A stretch of DNA of 62,845 nt from Streptantibioticus silvisoli (lineage in GTDB: Bacteria > Actinomycetota > Actinomycetes > Streptomycetales > Streptomycetaceae). Location: NCBI RefSeq assembly GCF_027947535.2, contig NZ_JAAGKO020000051.1, positions 1-62,845 of the forward strand, in the 5' to 3' direction. The first letter of the stretch is position 1. Each line of letters starts with the position of its first letter. Below the pieces are notes generated by a model, which saw nothing but the letters and a program-made list of their open reading frames with translations, did not search any database and was not told the DNA's origin. Position numbers and translations under genes: made by a program. Of the stretch, positions 4,624 to 20,859 are shown piece after piece.

Positions 4624-5828
4624 GCCGGCACCCGCAGTCGCACCACGAACCCCTCCTCCACCGGTCCAGCCTCCAGCGTGCCGCCGAGCAACTCGGCCCG
4701 TTCACGCATCCCGAGCAGACCGTAACCCGATCCGGACACCCCCAGCTCGTTGTCCACAGGCTCGCTCCCCGAGTTATCCACAGGGCGACCGCCGAAGTCC
4801 CGCACTTCCAATTCCACCTCCTTTGTGTGGTATTGGAGCCGCACCGCGACCTTCGCCCCCCGGGCGTGCTTGCGCACGTTGGTCATCGCCTCCTGCGCGA
4901 CCCGCCGCACCGCCTGCCCGGCCTCCGCCGGCAGGTGCCGCTGGTCGCCCTCCACCTGCAACCCCGCCCCCTCCGACTCCACCAGTTCGCGCAGGAACTC
5001 CTCCGCCGAGGTCATCTCCCCCCGCAGCGCCGACAGTGCCTGCCGGGTCTCCGCGAGCCCCTGTCGCGCCATCCGCCGGGCCGCCACGACCCGTTCGAGG
5101 ACGTCGTCCCGCTCCCCGCCGCGCTCGATCAGCAACCGCGCGGCCTCCAGGTGCACCAGCTGCGCGGACAGGCTGTGCGCGAGCACGTCGTGGATCTCCC
5201 GGGCGATCCGGCCACGTTCGCGCAACGCCGCCGTCTCCGCCTCCGCCACCCGTGCGGCCCGCTCCTGGCGCAGCAACCGCTGCATGCTGCCACGGCTCTC
5301 CGCGTCCAGCCGCAGGACGTAGCCGACCAGCCCCAGGCCCAGCGTGGCGAGCAACGTGGCCCAGCCGCCGTGCCGGGTGCCGAACGCCGCGTAGGCGCCC
5401 AGGGCGATCCCGTTCAGTGGCACGGCCACGCCCAGCGGGAGCCGTTGCATCCCGATGACGGCGGAACCGCACCACAGCACGGTGGCCGCGAAGTCCATCT
5501 GGACCGACCGGGCCGCGAACGCACCGCCCAGGAGCAACAACAGGATCGCCACCGAGTACGCCACGCGGTTCAGCAGTGTGCACCGGACGAGCACCACCAC
5601 GGATCCGGCCGCCAGCAGACCGCTCGCGATCACCGCCACCGGGTGGCGGGTGGCGAAACCTCCCTGAGCGAAGGTCCCGCCGAACAGGGCGGCCAGGATC
5701 AGCAGGCGCATCACCAGGCTCATCCAGCGGTGGGTGCTGCGCCGGTAGCTGCGGGAGAGCGCCTCCTGGGAGGGCCAGGCCGTCCAGAACTCCCGCTCCA
5801 GCACGACTCCTTCCGCCGCCGAGGTCAT
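4620..5828 (-). CDS. sensor histidine kinase (HisKA_3 type)
   Basis: A 402-residue membrane kinase. About six hydrophobic helices lie between residues 38 and 172 with hardly any extracellular loop, so it may sense the membrane itself. The dimerisation box RIAREIHDVLAHSL carries the phospho-acceptor His213. A Bergerat ATPase domain follows (EAMTNVRKHA, VRDFGGRP, GYGLLGMRERAELLGG). It overlaps the membrane-protein gene upstream and the regulator downstream by ATGA, giving a tight three-gene operon. Unusually, the loop after VRDFGGR contains a tandem PVDNSGSEPVDNELG, encoded by a 24-bp duplication that places two perfect DnaA boxes inside the gene. Confidence 0.92.
   Translation of the reverse strand: MTSAAEGVVLEREFWTAWPSQEALSRSYRRSTHRWMSLVMRLLILAALFGGTFAQGGFATRHPVAVIASGLLAAGSVVVLVRCTLLNRVAYSVAILLLLLGGAFAARSVQMDFAATVLWCGSAVIGMQRLPLGVAVPLNGIALGAYAAFGTRHGGWATLLATLGLGLVGYVLRLDAESRGSMQRLLRQERAARVAEAETAALRERGRIAREIHDVLAHSLSAQLVHLEAARLLIERGGERDDVLERVVAARRMARQGLAETRQALSALRGEMTSAEEFLRELVESEGAGLQVEGDQRHLPAEAGQAVRRVAQEAMTNVRKHARGAKVAVRLQYHTKEVELEVRDFGGRPVDNSGSEPVDNELGVSGSGYGLLGMRERAELLGGTLEAGPVEEGFVVRLRVPA
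4750..4782. promoter_or_regulatory. two tandem DnaA boxes inside the kinase gene
   Basis: TTGTCCACA at 4750-4758 and TTATCCACA at 4774-4782 lie in the same orientation with starts 24 bp apart. Both are perfect matches to known DnaA-box forms. They sit in a coding duplication (residues PVDN..PVDN), in a loop that is poorly conserved in this kinase family. DnaA binding is inference. Confidence 0.5.
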
Positions 5829-17066: not shown

Positions 17067-18518
17067 TCAGCACGGGGTCTCCTCCCCTCCGGTGCGGTCG
17101 CTCCGACGGGTCCGCGGACGAACGCCGCCGGGGCGGGTGCTGGCGGTCGGGCGGGGCGACCGGTCGCGGCGGCCCTTGGGAGCGGTCCCCGCGCCGGTGG
17201 ACCGGGGACGCCGGACGGCCTTGGCGGTGCGGTTGACGCGTTCCTCACGCAGGCAGCTGCGCAGCGGCTCCGGGTCCAGACCGTGGTTGCACGCCTGGTG
17301 CAGGAGCCTGGCGAAGGTGTATTCGGAGTCGGCTTCGAGCGCGAGGCCGAAGGCGACCCGGGCGGCCGGCTCGTCCCCGGTGGCCCAGGCCACCCAGCCC
17401 GCCAGGGTCAGCGGGGCCGCGGCATGACCGGCGTAGGCGCCGAGACAGCGGCGGGAGAGGGCACGCCACAGGCGTAGCGCGGGCGGGGCTTCGTCGCCTT
17501 CCATCCATTCGGCGGCACGGTCACGGGTGTCCCGGTCCTGGAGGCCGAGGATGATCGTCGCCGCTTCGTCATCGCCGAGCAGGGCGTCGTCGTGCCGGTC
17601 GCCGGCTCCGGCCTCGTCCGGAGCCGGCGCGGCCCGCAGACGGTCCATCGCGGCCGACGCCAGGGCCAGGGTCTCCTCCTGCACCGTGTGGGTGTCGCCG
17701 TGGACGAGCATGCGCGGGACGAGTTCGGCGCTGGCGTCGTCGAATGCCCCCTGTTGGGCGGGAAGGAGTTCGGCTGACAGCGGAATCAGCCGGGACTGCA
17801 GATCGCGCAGGGAGCCGCGTACCTGGATTCCGGCGTAGGCGGCGGTGGCGGCCATGACGGAGGTGCCGTCGCAGTTGAGCGGGGCGCCGCCGGGCGGACA
17901 GCAGGCGGCGGAGACGCAGGTGTAGGACCACCAGTGCCCTCCGGCGACGCACACCGCCTCGATGACGGGAACGTCCAGCGCTCCGCAGGCCCGGCGCAGG
18001 TACTGGGCGAGCGGCCGGAGGCGTTCCATCACCCCGGTCGGGCTCTTGCCGGGCGCGGGGTCCTGGCAGAGGAAGAGTGCGACGGCGTCGGGGCGGCGGG
18101 CGGGGCCGGCGCCGTTGACGAGGTTGTCGGCCAGCCCGGTGGCGAACGGCGGCCAGCCGGCCGGGTCGGCGGGGATGTCGACTCGCAGACGGGCGCCGAA
18201 CCTGCCGCGCGATCCGTGCAGTCCGATCAGGACGACGCTGTCGTCCGGGTGGAATCCGAGGAGGTAGGGCAGCGCGTCCGCGAGGTCGGCCGGGCTGCGG
18301 AGGACGACCTGCGGTTCGGTGCCCGCCGTTTCTTCCGCGAGGGCGCCGGCGGAGTCGGTGGGAAGTGCGTCGCGGGACGGGAGGGGCCTGCCCGAAGCCT
18401 GGGAGCGACCGCGGGCACGGGGCTCGCGGGGGAGTCCGGAGAGACCGTGGGTTGGGGAATCCGAGGGGTGGAAGGGGTCGGAGGGGAAGGGGGACGCGGA
18501 GTCGATGTGTCCAGTCAT
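17067..18518 (-). CDS. DUF4192 domain protein
   Basis: A 483-residue actinobacterial protein. After a disordered Ser/Pro-rich N-terminus of about 70 residues the DUF4192 core begins (VVLRSPADLADALPYLLGFHPDDSVVLIGL), continues with ADPAGWPPFA and GHWWSYTCVSAACCPPGGAPL, and ends in a helical repeat segment (WVAWATGDEPAARVAFGLALEADSEY). The C-terminus is an Arg/Lys/Pro-rich basic tail. The family has no established function. The ATG at 18518 is chosen because the conserved domain lies downstream and upstream codons fall in the shared promoter. It is divergent from the recQ-type helicase across 166 bp that carry a DnaA-box inverted repeat, which suggests a chromosome-related role, as inference only. 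Confidence 0.85.
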   Translation of the reverse strand: MTGHIDSASPFPSDPFHPSDSPTHGLSGLPREPRARGRSQASGRPLPSRDALPTDSAGALAEETAGTEPQVVLRSPADLADALPYLLGFHPDDSVVLIGLHGSRGRFGARLRVDIPADPAGWPPFATGLADNLVNGAGPARRPDAVALFLCQDPAPGKSPTGVMERLRPLAQYLRRACGALDVPVIEAVCVAGGHWWSYTCVSAACCPPGGAPLNCDGTSVMAATAAYAGIQVRGSLRDLQSRLIPLSAELLPAQQGAFDDASAELVPRMLVHGDTHTVQEETLALASAAMDRLRAAPAPDEAGAGDRHDDALLGDDEAATIILGLQDRDTRDRAAEWMEGDEAPPALRLWRALSRRCLGAYAGHAAAPLTLAGWVAWATGDEPAARVAFGLALEADSEYTFARLLHQACNHGLDPEPLRSCLREERVNRTAKAVRRPRSTGAGTAPKGRRDRSPRPTASTRPGGVRPRTRRSDRTGGEETPC

Positions 18519-18549
18519 GACCCGAAGATCCCGCGCGCACCAAGATCGC

Positions 18550-18640
18550 GCCAGCCCTGTGGATAACTGCGGCGCTTCATCGGATGACCTGCATAAAAAG
18601 CCGTCACTCCTGCGAGCGACAAGTTGTCCACAGGGCTGGC
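18550..18640. promoter_or_regulatory. 19-bp inverted repeat carrying two DnaA boxes
   Basis: GCCAGCCCTGTGGATAACT (18550-18568) and AGTTGTCCACAGGGCTGGC (18622-18640) are complementary at 18 of 19 positions. Each contains a perfect DnaA box: TGTGGATAA at 18558-18566 and TTGTCCACA at 18624-18632. The 53-bp spacer is relatively AT-rich and includes CATAAAAAG. The element occupies the divergent promoter region of the DUF4192 and helicase genes, so DnaA or a dimeric factor could control both. Confidence 0.7.
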
Positions 18641-18684
18641 GGTGGGGTTGGCGCGATGTCGGTGGCATCAGGTTGCATGGGGGC

Positions 18685-20859
18685 ATGAGCGATTCATTGC
18701 GGACCGACGCCGATGCCGTGCTGCGCCGCCTGGTGGGCGACCAGAGCGGCTCCGCCCGGCTGCGCGAGGACCAGTGGCGGGCCATCGAGGCGCTGGTAGC
18801 CGACCGGCGCCGGGCGCTGGTCGTGCAGCGGACCGGGTGGGGGAAGTCAGCGGTCTACTTCGTGGCCACCGCTCTGCTGCGGGAGCGGGGCAGCGGTCCC
18901 ACCGTGATCGTCTCCCCCCTGCTGGCCTTGATGCGCAACCAGATCGAGGCGGCCGGGCGGGCCGGGATCCGCGCGCGCACGATCAACTCGGCCAACCTGG
19001 AGGAATGGGACCAGGTGCAGGCCGAGGTCGCCGCGGGACAGGTGGACCTGCTGCTCGTGAGTCCGGAACGGCTGAACAACCCGGACTTCCGCGACGAGGT
19101 CCTGCCAAGGCTGGCGGCCACCACGGGTCTGCTGGTGGTCGACGAGGCGCACTGCATCTCCGACTGGGGCCACGACTTCCGCCCGGACTACCGGCGACTG
19201 CGGACCATGCTCGCCGAACTCCCCTCCGGAACACCGGTGTTGGCCACGACGGCCACGGCCAACGCACGGGTGACCGCCGATGTGGCCGAGCAGTTGGGGA
19301 CCGGTGGCCAGGGAGCGGCGGCTGATGGCACCGCCCTGATTCTGCGGGGGGAACTGGACCGCGAGAGCCTCGCGCTGAGCGTGCTGACGCTGCCGGACGC
19401 GGCGCACCGGCTGGCCTGGCTCGCCGACCACCTCGGCGAGCTGCCCGGGTCGGGGATCATCTACACCCTGACCGTCGCCGCGGCGGACGAGGTGACGGCG
19501 TTCCTGCGGCAACGGGGATATCCGGTGGCCGCCTACTCGGGCCGGACCGAGGACGCGGACCGGCGCGGCGCGGAAGCGGACCTCATGGCGAACCGGGTCA
19601 AGGCGCTGGTGGCGACGTCAGCCCTGGGGATGGGGTTCGACAAGCCGGACCTGGGCTTCGTGGTGCACCTGGGCTCCCCCTCCTCCCCCATCGCCTACTA
19701 CCAGCAGGTGGGGCGTGCCGGACGTGGGGTGGACCACGCGGAGGTCCTGCTGCTGCCGGGGCGGGAGGACGAGGCGATCTGGCGGTATTTCGCTTCGCTG
19801 GCCTTCCCCGAGGAGACGTTGGTCCGGCGGACGCTGGAGGTGCTCGCCGCCTCCGACCGCCCGGTGTCGCTGCCCGCGCTGGAGGCGAGGGTGGAACTGC
19901 GGCGCTCCCGGCTGGAGACCATGCTGAAGGTGCTGGACGTGGACGGGGCGGTGCGCCGGGTGCGCGGCGGATGGACGTCGACGGGGCAGCCGTGGAACTA
20001 CGACACGGACCGCTATGCCTGGGTGGCCCGGCAGCGGGCCGCGGAGCAGCAGGCGATGCGGGACTACGCGTCGGGCACCGGATGCCGGATGGAGTTCCTG
20101 CGGCGCCAGTTGGACGACGAGGCCGCGAAGCCGTGCGGTCGGTGCGACAGCTGCGCGGGGGCGCGCTTCACCGCTGAGGTCTCCCCGGACGGGATGGACG
20201 CCGCGCGATCGGCACTCGGGCGGCCCGGTGTGGAGGTGGAGCCGCGGCGGATGTGGCCGACCGGGATGCCGGCGCTCGGGATCGAACTGAAGGGCCGTAT
20301 CCCCGCCGGGGAGCAGGCCTCCGGCGGACGGGCCCTCGGCCGGCTCTCGGACATCGGCTGGGGCAACCGGCTGCGGCCGCTGTTCGCCGAGGGCGCACCG
20401 GACGTACCGGTGACGGGCGAGATGGTGGACGCGGTGGTGCGGGTGCTGGCCGACTGGGCGAAGGGGCCCGGCGGGTGGGCCAGCGGGGAGGCCGGGGCGA
20501 CGGCCCGGCCGGTGGGTGTGGTGACGGTGGCCTCGCGGACCCGGCCGGTGCTGGTGGAGAGCCTGGGGGCGCGCATCGCCGAAGTCGGCCGGATGCCGGT
20601 ACTCGGGCGGATCGAGCCGCTGGAAGGGCCGGACCAGGGGCGGATACCTCGAAGCAACAGCGCGCAGCGGTTGCGTGCCCTGCACGGGACGCTGTCGGTC
20701 CCGGCCGGTCTGGCGGCGGAGTTGGGGCAGGCACGGGGTCCTGTGCTGCTGGTGGACGACCTGGTCGACACGGGGTGGACGCTGGCGGTGGCGGCCCGGC
20801 TGCTCCTGCGAGCCGGGGCGACGGGGGTACTTCCGCTGGTGCTGGCCACGGAGGGCTGA
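18685..20859 (+). CDS. recQ: RecQ-family DNA helicase fused to a phosphoribosyltransferase-like domain
   Basis: A 724-residue superfamily 2 helicase. Visible motifs are Gln30 of motif 0 (LREDQWRAIEAL), Walker A RTGWGKSAV (Lys54), DEAH at 153-156 (VVDEAHCISDWGHDFRPDY), TATANARV and motif VI QQVGRAGRG. The RecQ zinc site is present (CRMEFLRRQL, then CGRCDSCAG). The last 120 residues instead carry a phosphoribosyltransferase fold signature, GPVLLVDDLVDTGWTLAVAA, with the two Asp of the PRPP loop. This fusion is common in actinobacteria; the PRTase part may act in nucleotide recognition. The ATG at 18685 follows a G-rich tract. Role: unwinding at stalled forks or recombination intermediates. Confidence 0.92.
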   Translation: MSDSLRTDADAVLRRLVGDQSGSARLREDQWRAIEALVADRRRALVVQRTGWGKSAVYFVATALLRERGSGPTVIVSPLLALMRNQIEAAGRAGIRARTINSANLEEWDQVQAEVAAGQVDLLLVSPERLNNPDFRDEVLPRLAATTGLLVVDEAHCISDWGHDFRPDYRRLRTMLAELPSGTPVLATTATANARVTADVAEQLGTGGQGAAADGTALILRGELDRESLALSVLTLPDAAHRLAWLADHLGELPGSGIIYTLTVAAADEVTAFLRQRGYPVAAYSGRTEDADRRGAEADLMANRVKALVATSALGMGFDKPDLGFVVHLGSPSSPIAYYQQVGRAGRGVDHAEVLLLPGREDEAIWRYFASLAFPEETLVRRTLEVLAASDRPVSLPALEARVELRRSRLETMLKVLDVDGAVRRVRGGWTSTGQPWNYDTDRYAWVARQRAAEQQAMRDYASGTGCRMEFLRRQLDDEAAKPCGRCDSCAGARFTAEVSPDGMDAARSALGRPGVEVEPRRMWPTGMPALGIELKGRIPAGEQASGGRALGRLSDIGWGNRLRPLFAEGAPDVPVTGEMVDAVVRVLADWAKGPGGWASGEAGATARPVGVVTVASRTRPVLVESLGARIAEVGRMPVLGRIEPLEGPDQGRIPRSNSAQRLRALHGTLSVPAGLAAELGQARGPVLLVDDLVDTGWTLAVAARLLLRAGATGVLPLVLATEG

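Follow-up and report, generated by a model that had tools for sequence, protein, structure and literature searches.

A long inverted repeat with a DnaA box in each arm, lying between two divergent genes of Streptantibioticus silvisoli, raises the question of what DnaA would do at such a place. The original prediction, made from the letters alone, offered either a DnaA-controlled promoter region that ties helicase expression to the replication cycle, or a site at which DnaA is titrated or reactivated. We have therefore asked which features of this site are kept in relatives, and to which of them the boxes are tied. The window, here and below, is the whole stretch of DNA that was analysed, 62,845 nucleotides in length.

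The inverted repeat and its flanking genes

The features of the 166-bp intergenic region and of the two genes are as follows.

17067-18518, minus strand: gene for a DUF4192 protein of 483 aa (PF13830, E 2.5e-82)
18549-18568, no strand: left arm of the inverted repeat, CGCCAGCCCTGTGGATAACT, 20 nt
18558-18566, minus strand: DnaA box A, TTATCCACA, perfect, with the orientation of DUF4192, whose ATG lies 39 bp downstream
18622-18641, no strand: right arm of the inverted repeat, AGTTGTCCACAGGGCTGGCG, 20 nt
18624-18632, plus strand: DnaA box B, TTGTCCACA, perfect, with the orientation of the recQ-like gene, whose ATG lies 52 bp downstream
18685-20859, plus strand: gene for a RecQ-like helicase (724 aa) whose C-terminus weakly resembles phosphoribosyltransferase/ComF

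The two near-complementary arms of the original prediction were confirmed and are now read as 20 nt each, complementary at 19 of 20 positions (95%) and separated by 53 nt, and the perfect DnaA box reported within each of them was found again. The boxes are 57 bp apart and divergent, and they are the only two DnaA boxes with at most one mismatch within 260 bp. The strict box word, TTRTCCACA, has four occurrences in the window, where shuffles predict 0.18, and the genome as a whole (8.7 Mb) contains 65, compared with 14 of the reversed word. A second pair of strict boxes in the window, at 4750-4758 and 4774-4782, has both members on the plus strand, 24 bp apart, and seems, as judged by eye, to lie inside a coding region. 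The spacer had been described as AT-rich; with an A+T content of 42% compared with 27% for the window, the 57-nt stretch between the boxes is indeed richer in A+T than its surroundings, but moderately so. The distance from oriC also held, since in a relative with a closed genome (G079) the recQ-like gene is 1.9 Mb away from the box that precedes dnaA.

The placement between divergent genes, DUF4192 on the minus strand and the helicase on the plus strand, stands as well, whereas the name of the helicase needs to be softened: it scores 216.7 bits against the RecQ family model TIGR00614, about 3 bits under the cut-off of 219.8, and for this reason "RecQ-like" is safer than "RecQ". The DUF4192 name was met in a single paper of the literature that was searched. 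Its sequence had no match in NCBIfam or PHROGs and no significant match among PDB sequences (best E 0.032). In the fold modelled by AlphaFold2, which was run on 29 proteins (mean pLDDT 81.3), residues 70-203 resemble RadC of Chlorobium (2qlc; Z 11.1, 121 aligned, rmsd 2.9; Foldseek E 2.7e-3) and residues 260-414 match TPR-like repeats. DUF4192 is thus predicted to consist of a RadC-like domain plus TPR-like helices, a likeness of fold that is no proof of function.

Conservation of the boxes and their distances to the genes

A set of 110 recQ-like loci was compared, which was made up of this genome, 29 others from its family and 80 named records (30 loci from 297 genomes, plus 80 of 591 confirmed relatives). 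Among the matches listed, DUF4192 is divergent from the recQ-like gene in 79 of the 110 loci, and in 75 of these 79 a strict box lies no more than 300 bp from recQ; a strict box on the recQ side is present in 34, and a strict divergent pair in only 31; the loci are kin by descent, and such counts are not independent events. The intergenic stretches concerned hold 113 strict boxes, compared with a single one in 526,239 bp outside them at the same loci, and the reversed word is absent from both. When the divergent arrangement is missing (31 loci), a box precedes recQ in two cases. The box follows DUF4192, because all 10 loci in which DUF4192 lies after recQ have a strict box ahead of the stretch that aligns with DUF4192, and for eight of these boxes a candidate ATG is 39-40 or 51 bp away. 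An exclusive focus on the helicase, as in the original prediction, is therefore not supported; the box is tied to DUF4192 no less than to the helicase.

The association extends beyond the Streptomycetaceae for some families. A sample of 60 DUF4192 loci from 26 other actinomycete families, hand-picked from the listed matches in order to spread the families, included 18 loci, in 7 families, with a strict box no more than 450 bp upstream of the DUF4192 domain, and in the 19 other families sampled the box was absent. At these 18 loci all 20 boxes have the DUF4192 orientation, in 13 of the loci the box is 50-53 bp from a candidate start codon, and strict boxes were not found elsewhere in these non-Streptomycetaceae stretches. 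One family (f19) has the box in eight of nine loci. A further 30 loci were read with TTTTCCACA also allowed. All 12 of these that belong to the Streptomycetaceae have a box, the exceptions in placement being one locus with the box 469 bp off (L151) and one with two boxes that point away from DUF4192 (L145); the 18 further non-streptomycete loci have a box within 450 bp in three cases, two in DUF4192 orientation and one opposite.

The distances between boxes and genes were more informative than the repeat itself. On the DUF4192 side of the 79 divergent loci, the box is 39-41 bp from the ATG in 53, 50-52 bp in 12 and at an odd distance in 2, with 12 loci left out of the measurement. Start codons had here, as at the loci with DUF4192 after recQ and in the other families, been picked among in-frame candidates, which favours agreement, and a run in which they were picked blind to the box served as a check: out of 48 loci, 36 were at 39-41 bp, 3 at 51-52 bp and 2 at odd distances, and 7 were without a box in range. 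The two distances, about 40 and about 51 bp, differ by about one helical turn. On the recQ side, the strict box is 51-53 bp from the ATG in all 22 of the 34 loci in which the ATG was placed by the motif described below; the other 12, with starts extrapolated from the alignment, gave 47-52 bp in 3, 61-64 bp in 5 and 80-88 bp in 4, one of the last group having a second box at 125 bp. In contrast to these gene-anchored distances, the gap from box to box in the 31 pairs varies from 1 to 58 bp, and eight relatives have the boxes 1-2 bp apart and still divergent. The outer 8 nt beyond the boxes match between the arms at all 8 positions in this genome only; each of the 30 other pairs has from 1 to 7 matches. 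Conservation of both arms and of the spacer length had been set beforehand as the support for the original prediction, and neither was found; what is kept in relatives is the boxes, while the outer ends of the arms are not. Judging from these alignments, the palindrome is not the functional unit, and the gene-anchored gaps, the variable distance between the boxes and the unconserved arm ends argue for two anchored sites in its place.

A damage-type promoter motif and other boxed genes

Downstream of box B, and at the equivalent place before DUF4192, two promoter-like elements can be read.

18656-18678, plus strand: RecA-NDp (PafBC-type) promoter-like motif of the recQ-like gene, ATGTCGGTG-N8-TTGCAT, starting 23 bp after box B
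18525-18530, minus strand: candidate -10 element GATCTT of the DUF4192 gene, 7-12 nt before the ATG

RecA-NDp is a mycobacterial LexA-independent damage promoter with the published consensus tTGTCRgtg-8nt-TannnT (PMC5656591; mycobacterial RecA-NDp/PafBC promoters are also treated in PMC8151990 and PMC8223512), and according to a review such promoters extend to other Actinobacteria (PMC8223512). The motif in the window keeps the spacing of this consensus, and differs from it at the first T and at the A of TAnnnT. A motif of the type nTGTCRGTG-N8-TTGCAT was found in 47 of the 79 divergent loci (among the matches listed). A box-like word, T[TC]NTCCACA, lies within 60 bp in 32 of these 47, with a gap of 22-24 bp in 31 and of 36 bp in one; the remaining 15 are without a box-like word in reach. 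Because the -10-like hexamer ends 6 bp ahead of the recQ-like ATG, a leaderless transcript is possible for this gene. Before the DUF4192 ATG, each of the three letters of GAnnnT at positions -12 to -7 is present in 32 of 36 aligned upstream regions, and the presence of GAnnnT here and of TTG[CT]AT in the corresponding position upstream of recQ suggests that both transcripts may be leaderless.

The same spacing was found at other genes when the 65 strict boxes of this genome and the 63 of G079 (128 in all) were scanned. The motif core lies within 75 bp downstream of a box in six cases, against 1.1 expected, and four of the six have a gap of 22-23 bp, namely those at recQ (both genomes), lhr (this genome) and recA (G079), the others being at 15 and 39 bp. 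For gaps of 22-24 bp among the 128 boxes, 0.04 would be expected (P for three or more, 1.3e-5), and four sites at three genes were found. For recA, 20 stretches were chosen by synteny with lhr, of which 15 contained recA, two of them cut off upstream; with L425 and L359 added, there were 15 readable loci (among L359, L425 and L435-L448). In 12 of the 15 the box is 22-24 bp from the motif (10 strict boxes and 2 of the form TTTTCCACA), and in this genome and two others it is 94-107 bp away, 94 bp in this genome. The recA motif, nTGTCAGTG-N8-TAGCGT, is present in all 15 and agrees with the published consensus, its first base being T in 13 (TTGTCAGTG-N8-TAGCGT) and A and C in one each. For lhr, the motif core is present in 30 of 30 loci (L164, L263-L292), nearly all of which have CA[CG]GAT instead of TAnnnT, and a box was found in 10 of these best 30, each time at 22-24 bp from the motif.

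Some attempts to make more of the motif were abandoned. The pattern TGTCRGTGN8TNNNATG was dropped as a finder of regulon members, being too strict: it has two matches in the genome itself, one of which is recQ. An apparent trade-off between a strong motif and a box was seen at lhr (perfect motif in 1 of 10 loci with a box and in 15 of 20 without; Fisher p 0.0014) and at recQ (2 of 25 with and 12 of 31 without; Fisher p 0.012; 10 loci with a one-mismatch box, 4 of them perfect in the motif, were left out). We do not rely on it, because the test takes no account of kinship and few genera contribute the lhr boxes.

Several replication and repair genes also carry boxes. Four sets of 30 loci were read, the best 30 from 61 genomes each for UvrD-family, lhr and mdh and from 41 for dnaB. 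A UvrD-family helicase gene has a box in 29 of its best 30 loci; in 20 of these the box has the opposite orientation and stands at exactly -48 relative to the start. The figure for dnaB is likewise 29 of the best 30 (L323-L352), the one miss being at a contig end, and most of these loci have a convergent strict pair upstream, 79-80 bp apart from start to start. The control, mdh, has an upstream box in none of its best 30, and its box in this genome is downstream of the gene. TTRTCCACA is also found between dnaA and dnaN, and a box before dnaA, the open frame that holds the DnaA match, is common to this genome and G079, which share 17 box sites, one of them inside dnaJ. The idea that all box pairs of the genome form one regulon was dropped, as the mdh box is not conserved and that of lhr is conserved in part (10 of 30). 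At least one divergent pair 0-30 bp apart occurs in 39 of 81 family genomes and in 0 of 81 for the control; since this list mixes the DUF4192/recQ site with others, the count was not used for that site.

Two further arrangements were observed in passing. Clusters of three to four strict boxes, common to this genome and G079, occupy the pheA-serS gap (L155/L380) and the crgA-rhomboid gap (L157/L374); in this genome they are on the contig of dnaA and dnaN, and they are candidate titration clusters. We have named crgA, pheA and serS from their sequences. Separately, a divergent TTATCCACA pair flanks AGAGGTCTAGACCTCT elsewhere in the genome (G000:C97:16298-16338, L165), and this unit is a perfect 42-bp palindrome in four relatives (G013:C57, G016:C17, G027:C67 and G034:C58). 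The gene downstream is presumably of the D-aminopeptidase type, and AGAGGTCTAGACCTCT looks to us like a GntR-type operator nested between DnaA boxes.

Interpretation and comparison with known systems

These results bear on three other ways to explain the site. The complementarity of 19 of 20 positions in this genome might suggest that the repeat works as a structure, such as a hairpin, a cruciform, a terminator or a dimer site that needs both arms; however, neither the arm ends nor the spacing are conserved in the other 30 pairs, so the repeat was rejected as a structural element, and we regard this explanation as very improbable. A DnaA titration or reactivation site of the datA or DARS kind, at which the boxes store or recharge DnaA and any control of the genes is incidental, is an unlikely explanation as well. 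The boxes are perfect, opposite in orientation and far from oriC, the DARS arrangement has box I opposite to boxes II and III (PMC5742627), and clusters of boxes in S. coelicolor are described as repressing untimely initiation (Smulczyk-Krawczyszyn et al. 2006, as cited in PMC5742627). The DARS core as given there, however, consists of three equally spaced boxes, whereas two boxes with at most one mismatch are present here at gaps that vary among relatives, and a DARS-like site was rejected on the number and the spacing of the boxes. With two boxes in 260 bp, no fixed spacing between them and positions that are set by the genes, so that the box stays with DUF4192 when recQ is elsewhere, the titration or reactivation role that the original prediction had allowed for is not favoured.

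It could also be that TTRTCCACA is read at these promoters by a protein other than DnaA. That the RecA-NDp motif follows at a set distance in front of recQ, recA and lhr would fit a 9-mer that is part of a larger site for a damage regulator, but the same 9-mer is found between dnaA and dnaN, before dnaA and before dnaB, and the motif core follows few of the strict boxes in this genome and G079. Moreover, TTGTCCACA is listed as the high-affinity box of S. coelicolor (PMC4285127), and we consider a different reader to have a small chance of being right.

The explanation that we consider likely is that the inverted repeat consists of two gene-anchored DnaA operators, one for each divergent gene, one of which forms a composite with a damage promoter. 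The box sequences, their conservation and their geometry are read directly from the genomes, and the strong conservation of the boxes and their gene-anchored placement support the DnaA-controlled promoter region of the original prediction, with DnaA as the inferred binder. Box A would act for DUF4192 at one of two distances (about 40 or about 51 bp) a helical turn apart, and box B would act for the recQ-like gene from about 52 bp upstream of its start and 22-24 bp upstream of the RecA-NDp/PafBC-type motif, where PafBC may be the co-regulator. Bound DnaA would be an upstream regulator of RNA polymerase at both promoters, probably as an activator or co-activator rather than a repressor, because the set distances to the genes, the helical phasing and the set spacing to the -10 region fit such a role. 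The RecQ-like helicase and the DUF4192 protein might in this way respond to how much DnaA is present or to its nucleotide state, as part of a wider set of replication and repair genes that have conserved boxes, namely recA, the UvrD-family helicase gene, dnaB and dnaA.

A wider reading, which we put forward tentatively and at somewhat less than even chances, is that replication and repair genes of streptomycetes form a regulon linked to DnaA. In it DnaA, from a constant 22-24 bp upstream of RecA-NDp/PafBC-type promoters, would co-control the LexA-independent damage response (recA, recQ-like, lhr), and the RadC-like/TPR-like DUF4192 would be an older actinomycete target of DnaA, perhaps a replication or repair factor. 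The spacing at recA, the RecQ-like gene and lhr makes a DnaA input into the RecA-independent damage response directly testable, and DUF4192 is flagged as a candidate replication or repair protein. Streptomyces may also make use of the PafBC motif; in an initial search reported by one study the motif was not found conserved in S. venezuelae (PMC9380542), with which the motifs at recA, lhr and recQ described here fit uneasily.

In the literature that was searched, no paper was found on the DUF4192/recQ-like site, and none that contained both of the terms "RecA-NDp" and "DnaA". The DUF4192/recQ-like site may already be on the S. coelicolor cluster list of 2006. With those clusters (Smulczyk-Krawczyszyn et al. 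2006) the present site shares the feature of Streptomyces boxes outside oriC.

DnaA is described as a transcription factor in E. coli and B. subtilis, where this role is well studied, in Caulobacter, and in Streptomyces at its own gene. For Streptomyces dnaA is the sole confirmed direct target named in that account, the published case being the dnaA promoter of S. lividans (PMC8203912). The DnaA regulon of E. coli, as determined by ChIP-seq, includes replication and DNA repair genes (PMC11317965). The present boxes resemble these systems in being upstream of replication and repair genes, and differ from the known DnaA regulons in the genes that adjoin them, which are those for DUF4192, the RecQ-like and UvrD-family helicases and lhr. 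E. coli prefers pairs of boxes 2-3 bp apart (PMC11317965), whereas the boxes here are anchored to genes, at about 40 or about 51 bp from the start codon, and the two at this site, divergent and 57 bp apart, do not form a double box of the E. coli type. A known parallel for boxes in damage-response promoters is E. coli uvrB and recN, which are co-regulated by DnaA and LexA (PMC6015884, PMC8203912); there the partner is LexA, whereas at the three genes described here the box is accompanied by a RecA-NDp/PafBC-type motif at 22-24 bp. The motif of the mycobacterial RecA-NDp/PafBC promoters is matched in full by recA of most relatives; TAnnnT is replaced by TTG[CT]AT in the recQ copy and by CA[CG]GAT in the lhr copy. 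What sets the promoters described here apart from the mycobacterial ones is the DnaA box that lies upstream of the motif at a set spacing.
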